DNA from: Lysobacteraceae bacterium
Lineage (GTDB): Bacteria > Bdellovibrionota > UBA1018 > JAGTJX01
Direction of reading: 5' to 3'
Assembly: GCA_023657465.1 (NCBI GenBank)
Contig: JAGTJX010000003.1
Coordinates: 71,436-135,435 of the forward strand
Length of the DNA: 64,000 bases
This document shows, piece by piece, positions 4,669 to 59,501 of this stretch. The notes under the pieces were generated by a model, which saw only the letters and a list, made by a program, of their open reading frames with translations, did not search any database and had not been told where the DNA came from. Within the stretch, counting starts at the first letter, position 1. The number at the start of each line of letters is the position of its first letter. The position numbers and the translations under genes were made by a program.

Positions 4669-6171
4669 TTAACCTTTAGCAGCTGTTAAGAAGTCGAGTA
4701 GGAATTGCTGTTTCTTAATATAAATATCTAGAATGTTTTTTACTTTCTTACGGGTCCTATCGTCAGTTGTGTAGGCAAGTACCATTATTCTTCCTTCTTC
4801 TTCTTCACTCTCAAAGTGATCTGCAACGACTTCAATGGTTGTTTCATTCTTAGTTTTTCCTTCAGTCATGCATACATCAATATTGAGCAAGTCTGATAGG
4901 TTTACTGAACCCGCTGGGATATCCAGTATAATATTGTGATCTTGAACTTCTATCAGTTCAACAAGAATAGGTGGATTAATGTCGACACTATTCTTTTGTT
5001 TGACGAATAGTTCAAGCTTGAGAGTCTCCATTGCATCGGCTCCAGCCTTCCAAGGGAGTTCTTCTTCGTCTTGTCTAGCATCTTTCAAAGAACCTGTGTT
5101 GAAATCTCGATACATCTGATCATCATTGATTGAAGAATCTTTGGGTGCTTCCTGAGTAACATCTGCAGGGTGTGTTTTATCTAATTCCTCATCGATGAGA
5201 TCGTCGAACGCCGATGATTTTTTCTTCTCATCTTTGAAGGTCTTGAGGTTATCGATAGTTTTCTGTATTGCTTCTAGGAAGTTATTTCCATGTTTAGAGT
5301 TTTCTGTAATGAGAAGTCTTTTTGGATCCTCGCTGATCATTCTGTAAGCGGTCGGCTCATTCTCGACGTAATATGCAAGTACGGGTTGACGACTGACAAG
5401 TGACCAGAGGTTGTCCTTCCAAGAAAACTCAGGTTCACGTCCGAAGAATATCCAGCGGCCCTCACTGACTTTGAATGTATCAAGGAATTGCGGTCCTACC
5501 TTCCATTCCCAGCCTTGTTTCTTGCCAAGAGTAAGCTCACTCTTCTCCCAGCTACCACTAGCAGGGCCAGGACCCAGGATCTGAATGAGCCATTGACCCA
5601 AAACATTTCTAATATTTTTTTTATTAGTGATGAGCCAGAAGTCACTTGAGTGATCCAGTTGCTTGTCCCAAGAGATAACTGTTTTTCCATCTTGATTATT
5701 CTTTGCCGCTATTTTTGAGAGAGACTTTTTTGAGACATCGGAGCCGCTGAGTTCTGCATCTTTTACAAGACGGTTATGCGCTTGACGGGCAAGTTTGATA
5801 TAATTATTGAGTTTGAAATTGAATTCTTTCTTTCCGACTTTAAAATCCAGAACTTCAAAACAGCCTTTGCCTTTGAGCATGAGGGGAATTTTCTCATGAG
5901 CGAGTTTATTGATGGCAATCACTCGTAGTGTTCCTGCTGTTATTTCAGGTGAAGTAGTTTCTAATAAACTCATTAAACTCACTAAGTCAGACTTCTCACT
6001 TACACAGATCAGGCAGACTGCAATGCTAGCCTTCTGAGTTTGAAGTACAGCAGCAGCAATGGTATTTGTTTTAAGAAACTCTATATTTTCTAGATCTTTT
6101 GAATATACTTCAAGTTCTGCAAGAGAAGGCGGAGCGTTTTCAGGGATGCAGACAATCAAGGATGTTTTCAC
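4669..6171 (-). CDS. hypothetical acidic protein, possible receiver-like N-terminus
   Basis: 500 residues from a GTG start without a clear ribosome binding site. No family recognised with certainty. Residues 1-130 alternate hydrophobic strands and helices (LIVCIPENAPP, SIAVCLICVS, LRVIAINKLA) like a degenerate response-regulator receiver domain lacking the phosphoacceptor motif; the middle is lysine-, aspartate- and glutamate-rich and probably disordered; the last ~120 residues are strand-rich and could be a PilZ-like barrel, though the RxxxR and D/NxSxxG motifs are absent. No signal peptide, so probably cytoplasmic. Ends base-to-base with purB and lies downstream of the exported AAA+ gene, 30 bases from it, on the same strand. 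Confidence 0.5.
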   Translation of the reverse strand: MKTSLIVCIPENAPPSLAELEVYSKDLENIEFLKTNTIAAAVLQTQKASIAVCLICVSEKSDLVSLMSLLETTSPEITAGTLRVIAINKLAHEKIPLMLKGKGCFEVLDFKVGKKEFNFKLNNYIKLARQAHNRLVKDAELSGSDVSKKSLSKIAAKNNQDGKTVISWDKQLDHSSDFWLITNKKNIRNVLGQWLIQILGPGPASGSWEKSELTLGKKQGWEWKVGPQFLDTFKVSEGRWIFFGREPEFSWKDNLWSLVSRQPVLAYYVENEPTAYRMISEDPKRLLITENSKHGNNFLEAIQKTIDNLKTFKDEKKKSSAFDDLIDEELDKTHPADVTQEAPKDSSINDDQMYRDFNTGSLKDARQDEEELPWKAGADAMETLKLELFVKQKNSVDINPPILVELIEVQDHNIILDIPAGSVNLSDLLNIDVCMTEGKTKNETTIEVVADHFESEEEEGRIMVLAYTTDDRTRKKVKNILDIYIKKQQFLLDFLTAAKG

Positions 6172-6201: not shown

Positions 6202-8835
6202 TTATCCGCCAATGGCTTTCTCACAAGGCTTCACTCCTTGACCGCTCACCCAAGGAGACCATTTTATTATAATTGGCTGAGTGGTTTGCTTTTTTGATTC
6301 ACTCATAACAATTTCACGTGCGATCCAGAGATCGAGTTGATCTTGTATGTATTCGCTAATGGTTCTGTAATCACTTTGGCCCTCAACGAATTGATTCATA
6401 TAGAACGCCATCATCTCTTTTTCATTTGAGAGAGTAATAGGGCGACTTTTCTTTCCTGAAGCAAACTTAATCGTTTTAGTAACGGCTTTCTTTAATGCAT
6501 CTTCAAACTCAGCGCGATTTGGGAGGTCAAGAGCTACAACAATTCCTGTACGTGAGATGAGAGGTTCTGCTATTCCTCCAGCGACGAGTGCTTTTCTAAG
6601 ATCATTGCTGGAGCGTTTTGGCTGAGTGGATTCTACATTTGATTTTCCACCAAAGCCTACAGGTTTGTAGGTCACGGCTCCTTGACCCGCATTCGTGGTC
6701 ATGAGGAATACAGCGTTGTGACATCTCACTTCTTCGAATACGAATTTGCCATAAGAATCTTTGAAATTAACAGTGAACTGTCCTGGTTGCAGCATCGAGA
6801 GAGCAGCATTTTGGACAGCAGGGTCAGCTTTCTCGATTTCATCAAAAGTGAAAATCGTTGCAGGACTCTTTAGTTGCGCCATATAGACTTCGTAGCGGAA
6901 TTCCTCTACAGAGTGAGGTGACTTGTATTTGTTCATCTCGATGAGTTTGTAATTGTAACCGAGAGCGACGCTCGAGAGCTTCGAGATGAATGTCTTACCT
7001 ACACCAGGAGGACCCATGAGAATCATACTATCCGCGTAGTCTTTGGAATGAACTCCAGCAAAACGTTTGAGCCACAGATCGAGAGTTTTGTTTATCGCTT
7101 CAGCTTGTCCGATGACTTCTTCCCTAAGAAGTTTTTCTAGTTTCTTAATGAGCTCTGAAGCCTTGGCAGAATCAAAGTTAGCTGGATCGAGGTTATAAGT
7201 TTTCTTCGTTGCTTCAAGAAGGGAGCCCATGTCAGCAACTCCTGCTTTCCAACTACCGCTGTTTCTTCCTTTGATTTGACCTGCAGCGAGTAAAAGATTG
7301 ATTGCAATTCTTGGCTGAGCTCCCGAGATGGAGTACTGATTGGAGAGCTCAATTGCTTTTTCGATAATAGCTTGTTCAGGGGCATCTTTGCCGATGAGTT
7401 TATAAGCATTTCTGATTGTTGTTAGAAGAACCTCTCCTGAGGGTGCGTGTGCTGTCACTTTTGTAAAACGTTGATTGAGTGCTGTATCAGTTGCATATGC
7501 ATTATCCCATTCATGGGGAGTGGAAGCCGCGATGAGACGGAGTAAACCAGTTTCTAATTCTGCTTTAATGGTGTTGAGATTGTTAGTAGTGTTGCCTTCG
7601 TATACACCTGCACCAGACATGGTATGAAACTCATCAATAAAATACGCTGGACGTACTTGTTGTGCATAAGAAATCAAGCTCTGCATACGAATTGCGTCTG
7701 AACCCACATATTTTGTACCCGCTACGAGCTTACTTGTAGATACAGCACGAATTTGAAGGGTGCGAGGTACATTGGGTAGAGTTCCCTTAGCAATTGCGCG
7801 TGCAAGTATTTTAATGAGTGTAGATTTTCCTACACCGGGATCTCCAATAAGTTTTACGCTTTTACCGTTTGCAAAAGTACTGAGAATATCCATATGGAAT
7901 TCAGAATAGATGTCGTTGATGTCAGCTTCAGTACCATTTTTAATTTTTTCTCTCTCGATTTCAACTAGATCAGGGAATTGCTCGTCCATCCATTGAGGTA
8001 CATTGATAGTTTTTTCTTGAGCATCTCTCACAATACTGAATTTCTGAGAATGCCCAATGAGATCAATTTCTGCATCAAACTGTCTTAAGTCGATTGCTCT
8101 TTCAACAGTATCGAATCTAAGAATTCCATCAACAATTCGACTGCGCTCAAAAGGATCTGGTGTCAGAGATCTATCAAAGAAAGATGAATTTAGGTTTTGA
8201 GTAACAATTAAAAATCTTCCTTTTTCATCAAAAAGCTTCAGAATGCTTTTATCGGATAGTTCTATTCTAAATTTTTTGCCTTCAAACTCAATGGTATTGT
8301 TTGATAATAGAGTTGCTTCTGTTTTCTTTTTGATTTTTATTGAGTTTTTTACTTCAGAGTCATTTGCTGCAACTGTAGGATTAGTTGAAGAATTGTTGAC
8401 GAAAATTTTAGGAAAATCTTGTAGTATTTTTTCTCTAATCGTTTCTACATAAATACTTTTTAAATTATTGTTTTTGTCAAAATATGTTGTTCCGATATCT
8501 GCCTTTAAAAGTTCGTCGCTCTTCACTGCCTCTAATTCAATATTATACTTCACTTCGCTCTTCGAGTCTTTGTCCTCGGAGTAGACTATTTTTTTAAAAT
8601 TAACATCTGTAAATAGCATGAACTGAGTCCATATATTGTCTCTTGGATCTTTAAATTCCAAATTAAGTACGGAGGTGTTTTTCTCAGATTTAACTTTTGC
8701 AGTGATTCTCACTCTCAGTTCTTCTTTTTCGATTCGTACTTTTACCATTCGCTCATAACGATGCTCTTGAGCAAAAGTAGAAGTGGTGATCCAGAAAGAC
8801 AACGCAGCAAGACTCAGGTGTATGAGAGGTTTCAT
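6202..8835 (-). CDS. ClpB/ClpA-like double-AAA+ ATPase with a signal peptide
   Basis: 877 residues from ATG at 8835 (a TTG lies one codon earlier). Two AAA+ modules are clear: NBD1 with Walker A GDPGVGKST near residue 330 and Walker B YFIDEFHTM; NBD2 with Walker A GPPGVGKT near 608, Walker B FTFDEIEKAD, and a C-terminal region resembling the Clp D2-small domain. The Clp N domain and the long coiled-coil M domain are not apparent; instead ~310 strand-rich residues come first. The N-terminus looks like a true Sec signal: Lys-Pro, then a hydrophobic stretch of about 19 residues and an Ala-Phe-Ala/Gln cleavage site. An exported ATP-dependent unfoldase would be unusual because periplasm lacks ATP. 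Probably in an operon with the two flanking minus-strand genes. Confidence 0.8.
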   Translation of the reverse strand: MKPLIHLSLAALSFWITTSTFAQEHRYERMVKVRIEKEELRVRITAKVKSEKNTSVLNLEFKDPRDNIWTQFMLFTDVNFKKIVYSEDKDSKSEVKYNIELEAVKSDELLKADIGTTYFDKNNNLKSIYVETIREKILQDFPKIFVNNSSTNPTVAANDSEVKNSIKIKKKTEATLLSNNTIEFEGKKFRIELSDKSILKLFDEKGRFLIVTQNLNSSFFDRSLTPDPFERSRIVDGILRFDTVERAIDLRQFDAEIDLIGHSQKFSIVRDAQEKTINVPQWMDEQFPDLVEIEREKIKNGTEADINDIYSEFHMDILSTFANGKSVKLIGDPGVGKSTLIKILARAIAKGTLPNVPRTLQIRAVSTSKLVAGTKYVGSDAIRMQSLISYAQQVRPAYFIDEFHTMSGAGVYEGNTTNNLNTIKAELETGLLRLIAASTPHEWDNAYATDTALNQRFTKVTAHAPSGEVLLTTIRNAYKLIGKDAPEQAIIEKAIELSNQYSISGAQPRIAINLLLAAGQIKGRNSGSWKAGVADMGSLLEATKKTYNLDPANFDSAKASELIKKLEKLLREEVIGQAEAINKTLDLWLKRFAGVHSKDYADSMILMGPPGVGKTFISKLSSVALGYNYKLIEMNKYKSPHSVEEFRYEVYMAQLKSPATIFTFDEIEKADPAVQNAALSMLQPGQFTVNFKDSYGKFVFEEVRCHNAVFLMTTNAGQGAVTYKPVGFGGKSNVESTQPKRSSNDLRKALVAGGIAEPLISRTGIVVALDLPNRAEFEDALKKAVTKTIKFASGKKSRPITLSNEKEMMAFYMNQFVEGQSDYRTISEYIQDQLDLWIAREIVMSESKKQTTQPIIIKWSPWVSGQGVKPCEKAIGG

Positions 8836-8923
8836 CAATCTCTTATCGGATAGATGCAGATAAAATAAAGTGTCAAAAAAATGACTTTTTATGAAATGAA
8901 ATTCAGCTCTGATCTAGTGCCAA

Positions 8924-33410: not shown

Positions 33411-34268
33411 TTATTCTTGTGGCAATTGAATTTTCCAAAAACTGGAATTGAGTGTTTCTTGTTCTTGAGCTGCTGCTTCTCGAATGAGATTGAAAAACGT
33501 ATCATCAAACCTGATCGCGTAGTTTTTTCCTTTTCCTAATAAAATGTTGATACCAACAGTTTTGCCATTCTGAAGAATGGGGCTTCCTGAATGGCCATAC
33601 CCAATACAGACGTTGTGCTCCATCAGTGTATCTTTATGATCTCTGGTTTTTAACTGAATGATTTCACCGGTCGATTCGTAAAGATTTCCATGATTCAATC
33701 GCGTTCCTCCTATGAGATAGGGGTAACCAAGCACCTTTGATGCGCCCAGTTCAGCTGAGGCATGAGGCAAAATTAAATGAAGTGGTAGTTCAGTACTCAG
33801 TTCAACTAAAGCCCAATCCATTCCTACATCGTAAAAAGGAACAGTCCCTTCAGGCATTCTTTGAGTTGGATTGAGTAGGTTTTGAATTGGCCATAAATCT
33901 TGCGTAAGATCATATTGGCCATTAAAAAAGGTAGTAGGCATTGCGATTGATTTTACTTTCCATTTTTTCGTAGTGTCTTTTACTGATTCAGCAAAATGAA
34001 ATTCTAATATTTCTTTTTCATGATTTTCTTTGAAATGCCGCTGAACACAATGCCCTGCAGTCAAGACATGTGTTGAATCGAATGCGAATGCACTACAAGT
34101 TAAAGTACCGTCATGTTGAAAAAAAGCACCTATTTGAGAGTAAGGCGGTAAAGTTCGATCTGCTACGGATTTAGGGAATGGACTTGTCGTATTGAAGCAT
34201 CGATCTTGTGCGTAAAGAAGAGAAGGGAGGATGAAGGCTAGAAAAGTTAAAATATTATTTTCCTCCAA
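33411..34268 (-). CDS. exported trypsin-like serine protease
   Basis: 285 residues. Chymotrypsin/V8-type triad: His in TAGHC, Asp in MDWALVEL, Ser in GYGHSGSPI. A hydrophobic signal (LTFLAFILPSLLYA/QD) starts at codon 6 or 7. Start choice is open: TTG 34268 lacks a ribosome binding site, while a GGAGG sits inside codons 1-3 and lies 8 bases before an ATT codon (34253-34251), which would trim the signal peptide neatly. Four to six cysteines may form disulfides. Five bases after the subtilase gene, so co-transcribed with it. Confidence 0.75.
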   Translation of the reverse strand: MEENNILTFLAFILPSLLYAQDRCFNTTSPFPKSVADRTLPPYSQIGAFFQHDGTLTCSAFAFDSTHVLTAGHCVQRHFKENHEKEILEFHFAESVKDTTKKWKVKSIAMPTTFFNGQYDLTQDLWPIQNLLNPTQRMPEGTVPFYDVGMDWALVELSTELPLHLILPHASAELGASKVLGYPYLIGGTRLNHGNLYESTGEIIQLKTRDHKDTLMEHNVCIGYGHSGSPILQNGKTVGINILLGKGKNYAIRFDDTFFNLIREAAAQEQETLNSSFWKIQLPQE

Positions 34269-34273
34269 ATTAT

Positions 34274-35407
34274 TTATTGTATGATGACAGGTTCTGCAGC
34301 GGTTTTGCGCTTAACAGATTTGTAGGCAAGTGATTTTACAGGCTTCAAGCGTACAACTGGAGCTTTTGGCTGAAGCTGGCTTAATGCTGCGTATGCATTC
34401 ACGCGCCCACCTGATGCAACTTTGCCCAAGAGGGTAGGAAGCTTATCTACTGAACCTTTGATCGCAGTCTTGATCTGGGATGGAGTGAGTGACGGATTCT
34501 TAGCAATCATCAGAGCTGCAAGTCCGGTCACAAACGCAGTCGCTTGAGAAGTGCCTGTCATCATGCCGTGCTTACCTCCGGGAAGAGTGGAGTAGATGCT
34601 ATCGCCAGGAGCAGCAACATCTACCTTGGACTTACCCCAGTTAGAAGAGGTAATGAGTTTGTTTCGTATATCCGTAGCGGCCACTGAGATAATATTAGAA
34701 AGACCATAGGCAGCAGGGTAGTAGAAGTTCTCGCGCTTATCTGTATCTTGGCGTTCGTTACCAGCAGCGCAAACCACCAAGATGCCCTTGGATTCTGCGC
34801 GCTTCATTGCAAGGTATTCACCTTCAGAGAATTCTGGGCCGCCACCGCTGTAGTTGATGACTTGAGCATTGTGATCGATAGCATAATTGAGAGCCTTGAT
34901 CGTATTGATGAGGTTTACGGAACCTGGAGCAGATTCAGAGTAGTACTTCACTGCCATGATCGAAACTTTCTTTGCGACACCGCTCACACCTGTTTCAGGA
35001 TTAGTGATGGCACCGATGATTCCAGAGACGTGAGTTCCGTGTCCGTGATCATCTTTAGGATTAGAAGTATTATTTGTGAAGTCCCAACCATAGGTAGTAG
35101 GGTTCTTAGGGTCGCGCCATAAATTGCGGGAGAGATCTACGTGGTTTGCATCGATTCCAGTGTCGATCACTGCTACGACAACGTCGCGTGAGCCTTCAGA
35201 GAGTTTCCATGCGTCTCTGACGTGAATGTGGGAGTCAGCCTGAGAGTTGTATAAACCCCAGTTCTTAAAATTGAGAGTAGGTTGGATGGATTGAGTCTTC
35301 GTGAGCGGTATAACGGAAGCAGTGTAGCGATCTAAGCCGCTCGTTCTGAAACCACTAATGCCGATGAGAGCGATACCAGTTGCAAGTAGTAGCCAATCTT
35401 TTTTCAT
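34274..35407 (-). CDS. subtilisin-family serine protease (S8), exported
   Basis: 377 residues. Triad motifs are complete: Asp in VIDTGIDANH, His in DDHGHGTHVSG, Ser in MTGTSQATAFVTG, with the oxyanion Asn in AAGNE. The N-terminus (MKKDWLLLATGIALIGISGF) is a signal peptide or membrane anchor, followed by a short prodomain-like stretch. The C-terminal extension is Lys/Ala-rich. Likely periplasmic or secreted. First gene of a minus-strand unit with the S1 protease. Confidence 0.9.
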   Translation of the reverse strand: MKKDWLLLATGIALIGISGFRTSGLDRYTASVIPLTKTQSIQPTLNFKNWGLYNSQADSHIHVRDAWKLSEGSRDVVVAVIDTGIDANHVDLSRNLWRDPKNPTTYGWDFTNNTSNPKDDHGHGTHVSGIIGAITNPETGVSGVAKKVSIMAVKYYSESAPGSVNLINTIKALNYAIDHNAQVINYSGGGPEFSEGEYLAMKRAESKGILVVCAAGNERQDTDKRENFYYPAAYGLSNIISVAATDIRNKLITSSNWGKSKVDVAAPGDSIYSTLPGGKHGMMTGTSQATAFVTGLAALMIAKNPSLTPSQIKTAIKGSVDKLPTLLGKVASGGRVNAYAALSQLQPKAPVVRLKPVKSLAYKSVKRKTAAEPVIIQ

Positions 35408-56309: not shown

Positions 56310-57317
56310 TTAATCTTCGATGCTGTAGTTTTTTTCAAATTCCTTTCTCTTATATTTCTTCTTTGATTTTAAAATTCCAAAACAGGTTGTTGCTATAATT
56401 CGAGCAATCGCGTGGCGTGCTTGATATGCAGGATATTTTTTTACCTTCATGAGGTAATGATAGGTTTCACCAAATTGATTTTTTGGAGATATGATCGAAA
56501 CCATAGCCGCTGTTTTAAAAACATTTTTCATCATCTTGCAGTAGCGGCCGTTTTTGCGGTAATATATTTTTCCACCACTACTGTGCTCTAACTTAATCAA
56601 TCCACAATAACTTAAAAATGCCCCCTTCGTTTCAAACCGCTTTGCGTCTACCACTCTGGATAAAATCTTCACAGAGTTGATCAGGCCAAATCCAGGAACA
56701 TCTTGTAGCAACTTTATTTCCGGGTGTTTTTTAGTGAGCAATTTAAATTGATCTTCGTACTCTTTTCGCTTTTCTTCTAAAAGCTCTAAAACATCTGCCT
56801 TTTCATTAAAAATAAAATTGGTCAACTCGTGCGAATCATCTGGAAGATCTTCTTTTTTCGAGCACCCGTAGCCTCGCAAGATTGCAAATTTTTGATTCTT
56901 GTAACCAATCACATTCAGTATCAAATCTTCGTATGCGCTCACGATTTGTCTCAAATAAACGATTTCATCTAGTTCGTGGTAAACTTCTTTTAGGTGACCG
57001 CTTCGAAGTAATCGTGCCAGTTTTTCGGCATCAATTTTATCTGTTTTTGCTCCCTCTTTTAAAAGTGCATTTCTGGTTGGATCGCAAATGATCAAGCGGT
57101 CAACTGAGCCTTTGAGTTCGGTGTACAACCAGTGCGACCAGGTGCCTTCTTCGATCGTCATTATTTTGGTGCCCTTTAGTTGTGACAAATAGGCCTTCAA
57201 GCCTTTTACATCCGCTGGACCCTCAAAAACGGTCGCTTTATCTAAATATTTTGTCATGCGCGCTACTGCCATCATTTTCAAAGACCAATCAATTCCGATA
57301 TAATGATCATAGTTCAT
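56310..57317 (-). mobile_element. IS110-family transposase gene
   Basis: 335 residues. N-terminal RuvC-like DEDD domain (YIGIDWSLKMMAVARM; MTIEEGTWSHWLY; TDKIDAEKLARLLR) and C-terminal Transposase_20 domain (LLQDVPGFGLINSVKILSRV; FLSYCGLIKLEHSSGGK; AMVSIISPK) with the late Ser region. IS110 elements have no terminal repeats, so the ends are not visible; they lie somewhere within 55985-57503. Inserted between the two copies of the small-protein module. Confidence 0.9.
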
Positions 57318-58770: not shown

Positions 58771-59501
58771 ATGTCAAAAAAAATCGCACTCTATTGCAGA
58801 GTCAGTACAGGAAACCAATCAACAGGCCTTGAGGCCCAAGTTCGAGCATTACGGGACTATTGCTCCCGAAATGCAATTTCAGATTATGTGATCTATGAAG
58901 ATGAAAACCAATCGGGAGTAAGCAATCCCGTCCAAGCCTTGATCGAATGATGAAAGATGTTCGATCTGGGTTGATTGAAAAAGTGATTGTTTATAGCTTC
59001 AGCCGCTATGCCCGATCTGTTTCCCATTTGCTTAGAGCCTTAGAGGAATTCAGAAAAATGAATGTGGGTTTTGTTTCCATCACAGAATCGATCGACACTA
59101 ATACTCCGCTGGGTGCAGCGGTCTTCACCATTTTGGGAGCTGTTGCCCAACTCGAAAGGGATCTGATCGCTGAGAGGGTCCGTAATGGATTGGCCAACGC
59201 CAAAGCGAAGGGCATCCGTATCGGTCACCTCAAAACTCGTGATAGCGATTTAATTCGCAAGCTCCGAGCTTCGGGAATGACCTATCGACAAATAGCTACA
59301 ATTGCCAAGTGTTCATCGGGTGCTGTATCGGCGGAACTACGAGCTTTGAAGGCTGAAAAGCAAAAGACGGTGGAATCCAAACTTGAAATGGAAGCGAAGC
59401 CGATGATGCAAAATCCAGCAAAGGCAAGTGAACAAAACGCCATGAAAGAATTGGATTTTCCAGTCGAAGAAATGAAAATTGAACTCGATTTCGCATCTTA
59501 A
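58771..59501 (+). pseudogene. serine recombinase (resolvase/invertase), split by a frameshift
   Basis: ATG 58771 with GGAG upstream begins MSKKIALYCRVSTGNQS (catalytic Ser), reaching TGA at 58948. The next frame opens at 58947 (ATGA overlap) and carries the rest of the catalytic domain (IVYSFSRYARSVSHLLRALEEF; LERDLIAERVRNGLANAKAKG) and a C-terminal HTH (TYRQIATIAKCSSGAV). One lost base near 58925-58932 explains the split. Small-resolvase size overall (~245 residues). Either decayed or translated as two coupled pieces. Confidence 0.7.

Follow-up and report, generated by a model that had tools for sequence, protein, structure and literature searches.

ATP is not expected in the bacterial periplasm and bacterial AAA+ unfoldases are, for this reason, taken to be cytoplasmic. 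Clp-related proteins that act elsewhere have nevertheless been described. Plasmodium HSP101 (ClpB2), a two-ring Clp/HSP100 protein of the endoplasmic reticulum and the parasitophorous vacuole, is the unfoldase of PTEX and works outside the cell that produces it (PMC8896661, PMC7355975); both of its rings keep their pore-loop tyrosines, its N domain is of the ClpB type and it has an EXP2/PTEX150 pore (PMC7355975). Torsins are exported to the lumen of the endoplasmic reticulum and display the Clp-clade fold, but consist of a single AAA+ module, require a LAP1/LULL1 activator, carry a GCK sensor-2 motif and conserved cysteines towards the C-terminus, and lack pore loops, and are thought not to thread their substrates (PMC4999309). 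A literature search found no description of an exported bacterial AAA+ protein, which is weak evidence of absence. Here we describe a Clp-type protein encoded in the window, the 64,000-nucleotide stretch of Bdellovibrionota DNA that was analysed, which is probably a Sec-exported, ring-forming, two-ring unfoldase that would remodel or unfold proteins outside the cytoplasm with the ATP available there. The first-pass annotation had cited eukaryotic torsins as the only such exported AAA+ proteins known to it; HSP101 is the closer precedent (PMC8896661, PMC7355975).

The gene is a single minus-strand open reading frame, with its ATG at 8835 and its stop codon ending at 6202, and the product comprises 877 residues. 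A TTG immediately 5' of the ATG, at 8838, leaves the reading unchanged, and the sequence AAGAGA lies upstream of the ATG. The features of the gene, with the evidence for each in brackets, are as follows.

6202..8835, minus strand: whole gene, Clp-type AAA+ protein of 877 aa with a predicted export signal (open reading frame, domain and curated-model matches)
8770..8835, minus strand: predicted Sec signal peptide, residues 1-22, cleavage TFA|QE (sequence features and family)
7903..8769, minus strand: N-terminal region, residues 23-311, predicted to be strand-rich, replacing Clp_N (domain scan and structure prediction)
7276..7902, minus strand: first AAA+ module (D1), residues ~312-520, with the pore loop KYVG at 375-378 (Pfam, curated models, alignment, predicted structure)
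7822..7845, minus strand: D1 Walker A, GDPGVGKS, residues 331-338 (sequence, family alignment)
7630..7635, minus strand: D1 Walker B, D401 and E402 (family alignment)
6286..7170, minus strand: second AAA+ module (D2), residues ~556-850 (Pfam, curated models, alignment, predicted structure)
6991..7014, minus strand: D2 Walker A, GPPGVGKT, residues 608-615 (sequence, family alignment)
6901..6927, minus strand: point at which D2 pore loop 1 (canonical GAPPGYVG...) is deleted, ~12 residues (family alignment)
6838..6843, minus strand: D2 Walker B, D665 and E666 (family alignment)
6652..6660, minus strand: VGF tripeptide at the position of the ClpP-docking loop of ClpA (IGL/IGF; such a tripeptide in 11/17 members)
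6205..6225, minus strand: C-terminal cysteine tail, CEKAIGG (cysteine tail in 13/15 members with a complete C-terminus)

Residues 1-22 of the window protein, MKPLIHLSLAALSFWITTSTFA, are followed by QEH and display a basic start, a 13-residue hydrophobic core and an AXA-like site. This segment had been annotated as a textbook signal peptide. The signal-peptide-like start stands, and is a feature of the whole family, but the window protein taken alone falls short of textbook, as its core is modest and the 15 residues that follow carry a charge of +2. The homologues (family A, see below) have retained the hydrophobic N-terminus. One-by-one inspection of the 16 of 17 members in which the N-terminus could be read revealed a signal-peptide-like start in every case, with a positive n-region, a short core that averages 14 residues, and an AXA-like site. 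When a uniform, strict rule was applied 14 of the 16 passed, with L003 and L067 missing it narrowly. None of the 31 canonical Clp proteins did so; these begin instead with Clp_N sequence (MIGKRAE... and similar). Signal peptides were judged by a simple scoring scheme of our own, and the GTG/TTG start codons of family members were assigned by hand. There is no better start codon downstream in the window gene, as no start beyond the hydrophobic stretch has a plausible ribosome-binding site; M30, the next in-frame ATG and past the hydrophobic stretch, lacks a clear ribosome-binding site and its position is not conserved.

One alternative listed by the first-pass annotation is that the N-terminal helix is a membrane anchor that keeps the ATPase inside. 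Such an anchor would be uncleaved with its N-terminus outside, and the ATPase would stay at the membrane on the cytoplasmic side, where ATP is found. In the window protein the post-core flank is no less positive than the N-side, and further basic residues lie beyond it, which favours such an anchor. It should be emphasized, however, that the N-side is the more positive in 15 of the 16 readable family members (means of +2.5 on the N-side and +0.06 on the C-side of the core), the window protein being a tie (+2, +2), and that the cores are short and AXA-ended throughout. The same N-side-inside balance is evident in the exported AAA+-M41 families discussed below, in 15/15 and 2/2 of the proteins scored. 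The charge balance would thus place the remainder of the family A proteins outside and argues against the anchor, which we consider very improbable. As its own charge balance is a tie, the case for export of the window protein rests on the family, and on these sequence grounds export is well supported. No transmembrane segment was detected beyond the N-terminal one in the window protein, or at a later position in any of the eight family members tested.

The homologue search across Bdellovibrionota that had been proposed for this protein returned 17 family A genes, one in each of 17 genomes among 369, and their distribution across the phylum is patchy. With the window protein as query eight genomes were matched at E 1e-45, while the distant member L031 gave 17 matches, of which one (L048) is an ordinary ClpA. 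A profile of 15 rows scored 16 members at 420-841 bits and L067 at 356 bits, compared with no more than 346 bits for canonical ClpA; L067, too, contains both the signal peptide and the cysteine tail. Relatives that carry names are Bdellovibrionales bacterium SZAS-1, Oligoflexia bacterium AlinenLipids_bin-3717, Bdellovibrionales bacterium JR-MC-I-240519-274 and Bdellovibrionota bacterium KLAP30. A scan of contigs with two short peptide patterns found family A members in Bdellovibrionota only; distant members would escape these patterns, and restriction of the family to the phylum is therefore not proven. On plasmids there was no full-length relative, the only match on viral contigs was one ordinary Clp protein, and a library of anti-phage defence systems returned only weak AAA matches. 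When a maximum-likelihood tree was built from the AAA+ core, a branch of length 2.29 with a support of 100/100 separated the 17 members from ClpA and ClpB. The end branches of family A, one close pair excepted, measure ~1.2-2.6 compared with ~0.2, and the joins within the family are unsure. By this tree family A is a separate, fast-diverging clade. The genome from which the window derives also encodes ordinary ClpA, ClpB, ClpP and FtsH, and the window protein is therefore an additional protein.

The label ‘ClpB-like’, given to the window protein at first sight, is less accurate than ClpA-like. The best curated model is that of ClpA (TIGR02639), which scores 185 bits, far below its cut-off of 993, with model positions 211-728 aligning to residues 329-851 in one continuous stretch, whereas the ClpB model scores 130 bits in two stretches. 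Foldseek matched the predicted structure to those of ClpC, ClpA and ClpB with E values down to 2.8e-31, ClpC and ClpA being the best. Similar to ClpA and ClpC, the window protein has the D1-D2 layout and, as in ClpA, the M domain is absent; a VGF tripeptide that may correspond to the ClpP-docking loop lies at the position of that loop. It differs from these proteins in having a signal peptide, in lacking Clp_N, in the deletion of D2 pore loop 1 (GYVG) and in belonging to a separate clade. The resemblance to ClpB/Hsp104 consists of two AAA+ rings from the same superfamily, but in the window protein Clp_N and pore loop 1 of D2 are both missing. An M domain is absent as well, as the D1 small domain is separated from D2 by only ~50 residues, which leave no room for it, and the protein is predicted to be exported.

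The first ~300 residues were held by the first-pass annotation to be strand-rich and to replace the Clp N domain, and this view is upheld, with the strands predicted at low confidence. Scanned alone, residues 24-311 matched no Pfam family above its cut-off, Clp_N included, and Clp_N is likewise absent from the whole-protein Pfam matches listed (25 of 42). AlphaFold models residues 24-311 mainly as strands; the mean pLDDT is 69 for the protein overall, below 50 across most of residues 1-172, and 44 in a second model of the N-terminal region alone.

In agreement with the earlier description of two intact Clp modules, the window protein retains all the catalytic residues of canonical Clp proteins. 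These comprise both Walker A and B motifs, the arginine fingers R456 and R762, sensor-1 (T439 and N715) and the sensor-2 arginine of D2. Within family A the Walker A lysine is found in 17/17 members in both modules, the D2 Walker B glutamate in 16/17 (L036 has lysine instead), the D2 arginine finger in 16/17, the D1 Walker B glutamate in 12/17 (N or D in the remainder) and the D1 arginine finger in 14/17, although the exact columns vary with the alignment. The first module is degenerate in ~5 of the 17 proteins which, together with the lysine in D2 of L036, indicates that ATP use may not be universal in the family. Pore loop 1 of D2 (GAPPGYVG) is deleted in all 17 members and present in 31/31 canonical Clp controls, a contrast that leans also on general knowledge of Clp D2, because the controls were picked partly by that motif. 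In D1 an aromatic pore loop is retained, as KYVG in the window protein and likewise in several other members. It is conceivable that these proteins are exported scaffolds or chaperones that work independently of nucleotide, their ATPase sites being leftovers. Such a role would remove the problem of finding ATP outside the cytoplasm, and it is in keeping with the degenerate D1 of some members and the loss of the D2 pore loop from all. However, in a family whose identity is ~18-33% few columns are near-invariant, and those of the Walker motifs, the arginine fingers and the sensors are among them; we view a nucleotide-independent role as improbable. The suggestion that the protein draws on another energy source is likewise unlikely, because the residues for ATP hydrolysis are intact.

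Comparison with the two exported systems introduced above is instructive. HSP101, which was also retrieved by a profile search of the PDB, resembles the window protein in being a two-ring Clp protein with an export signal. In contrast to HSP101, the N domain of family A is unrelated, pore loop 1 of D2 is missing and there is no known pore partner. An export signal on a Clp-clade module without a pore-loop motif, the combination that typifies torsins, is seen in the window protein for D2 only. Unlike torsins, the protein has two modules and its own arginine fingers, and the cysteine in its tail is not at the sensor-2 position.

The predicted export signal, the ATPase design, the absence of pore loop 1 from D2, the conservation across 17 genomes and the sister proteases described below can all be read from the sequences. 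The preferred model, of an exported ATP-driven unfoldase, extends these features as follows. The Sec pathway would carry the protein over the inner membrane, with the signal peptide removed after about residue 22, and the mature protein would assemble as a ring, presumably a hexamer. Hydrolysis of ATP outside the cytoplasm would then drive the unfolding or remodelling of proteins. Most of the handling of substrates may fall to the first ring, together with the strand-rich N domain, while the second ring could act as a motor without grip, as has been proposed for the pore-loop-less torsins. No source of ATP was found; a plausible one would be a prey or host cell that has been opened, or a compartment in which predator and prey are mixed. 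Transport of ATP was reportedly described in 1986. Uptake of intact nucleoside monophosphates by Bdellovibrio has also been reported (Ruby 1985 and Rittenberg 1975, as listed in PMC7529429). In view of these reports, prey nucleotides are at most a possible fuel.

Two further families of exported AAA+ proteins, both fused to a peptidase, were found in the phylum. In genome G330 a family A member is adjoined by a gene (L114:4748-9004) for a protein of 1419 residues, in which a signal peptide is followed by two Clp D2-like AAA+ modules and the C-terminus is an M41 peptidase domain (Pfam E 1.1e-11) containing HEAGH and SND. Relatives of this protein (family B; L126-L151) occur in 26 of the 369 phylum genomes, and signal-peptide features were present in 15/15 of the N-termini scored, with starts assigned by hand. 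Of 58 genomes of the class, 6 contain family C (L118, L119, L120 and L153-L158), whose proteins of ~1400 residues carry three AAA+ modules and an M41 domain behind a signal peptide; the third module passes the Pfam Torsin cut-off (35.7 compared with 27 bits). The M41 domains of the two families contain HExGH and, in most cases, SND. Likeness to FtsH is limited to this HExGH-containing M41 domain, and thus to families B and C, as the window protein has no peptidase. Furthermore, in FtsH both the AAA+ and M41 domains are cytoplasmic, behind transmembrane helices, whereas the proteins of families B and C start with a signal peptide and contain two or three Clp-like AAA+ modules. In G011 and G027 the family C gene is preceded by one for a putative membrane protein, and a further M41-like protein, L249 (G320:C31), has an HEFGH motif and the C-terminus SCASLLKGA.

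These fusions raise the question of whether the window protein feeds a separate exported peptidase, its VGF loop docking as ClpA does on ClpP. Besides the M41 domains of the sister families, the VGF or IGF-like tripeptide at the ClpP-docking position in 11/17 family A members is consistent with this proposal. In the window's genome, however, none of the ClpP copies inspected has a signal peptide and no exported M41 protein was found, only ordinary ClpP and FtsH; families B and C were not found there at the thresholds used. Feeding of a separate peptidase is thus an unlikely role for the window protein.

The three families also have a C-terminal cysteine tail in common. A tail containing cysteine is present in 13 of the 15 family A proteins with a complete C-terminus, in every family B member with a complete C-terminus (for example GSCKSLF and QTCARLFQ) and in the family C members seen (ETCADLL). 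Among the 15 family A proteins, 10 have a match to C-x-x-[LIVMFA]-[LIVMFYA] in their final 14 residues. The tails are near-terminal and conform roughly to [ST]Cxx[LA][FL], despite the different C-terminal domains. As the domain upstream is either the D2 small domain or M41, a function common to the tails of families A-C is likely, with anchoring, disulphide formation and sorting as candidates. When the AAA+ families were left out, the motif occurred in 6/290 exported-type and 4/534 cytosolic-type proteins sampled from six genomes, and a general C-terminal sorting tag is unsupported given its rarity in the former. A disulphide between the tail Cys 871 and Cys 705 of D2 was considered as a possibility; the partner lies at different positions in different members, and the predicted structure is of poor quality in the tail.

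A narrower form of the preferred model is that the protein is delivered past the envelope of its producer into a prey or host compartment, where it would use the ATP of that cell to dismantle proteins. The finding of members in Bdellovibrionota only, their patchy distribution and fast divergence, the protease domains of the sister families and a cysteine tail that is common to different C-terminal domains, and could be a sorting mark, are all compatible with delivery. In contrast, no secretion signal other than Sec was recognised and, as noted above, few other exported proteins contain the tail motif. We therefore regard delivery into prey as a tentative and rather doubtful refinement. The intact ATPase sites, the export signals and the protease-fused relatives indicate that these machines seem to work outside the cytoplasm. 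There is, in our judgement, an even chance that Bdellovibrionota run a class of exported ATP-dependent AAA+ machines, consisting of the family A unfoldase and the two AAA+-M41 protease families, which share the cysteine tail and would be fuelled by extracellular ATP, for example from prey. If correct, proteins would be unfolded and degraded at the expense of ATP on the far side of the bacterial inner membrane. A conserved family with intact ATPase sites and predicted export signals, in a phylum that also has exported AAA+-M41 proteases, makes it a testable question whether these bacteria have ATP to use beyond the inner membrane, and for what purpose, in direct parallel to the exported HSP101 of the malaria parasite.

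Across the 17 family A loci no conserved neighbour or operon partner was found, the close relatives L104 and L105 excepted. In the window a gene on the minus strand (4669-6171), which begins 30 bases downstream of the AAA+ gene, encodes a 500-residue protein with no Pfam match; it is a possible operon mate but is not kept in the relatives. Elsewhere in the window, adjoining open reading frames at 33411-35407 on the minus strand appear from their sequence to encode trypsin-like and subtilisin-like proteases that are probably exported, and open reading frames at 56310-57317 and 58947-59501, close to the end of the window, have a transposase-like and resolvase-like appearance.
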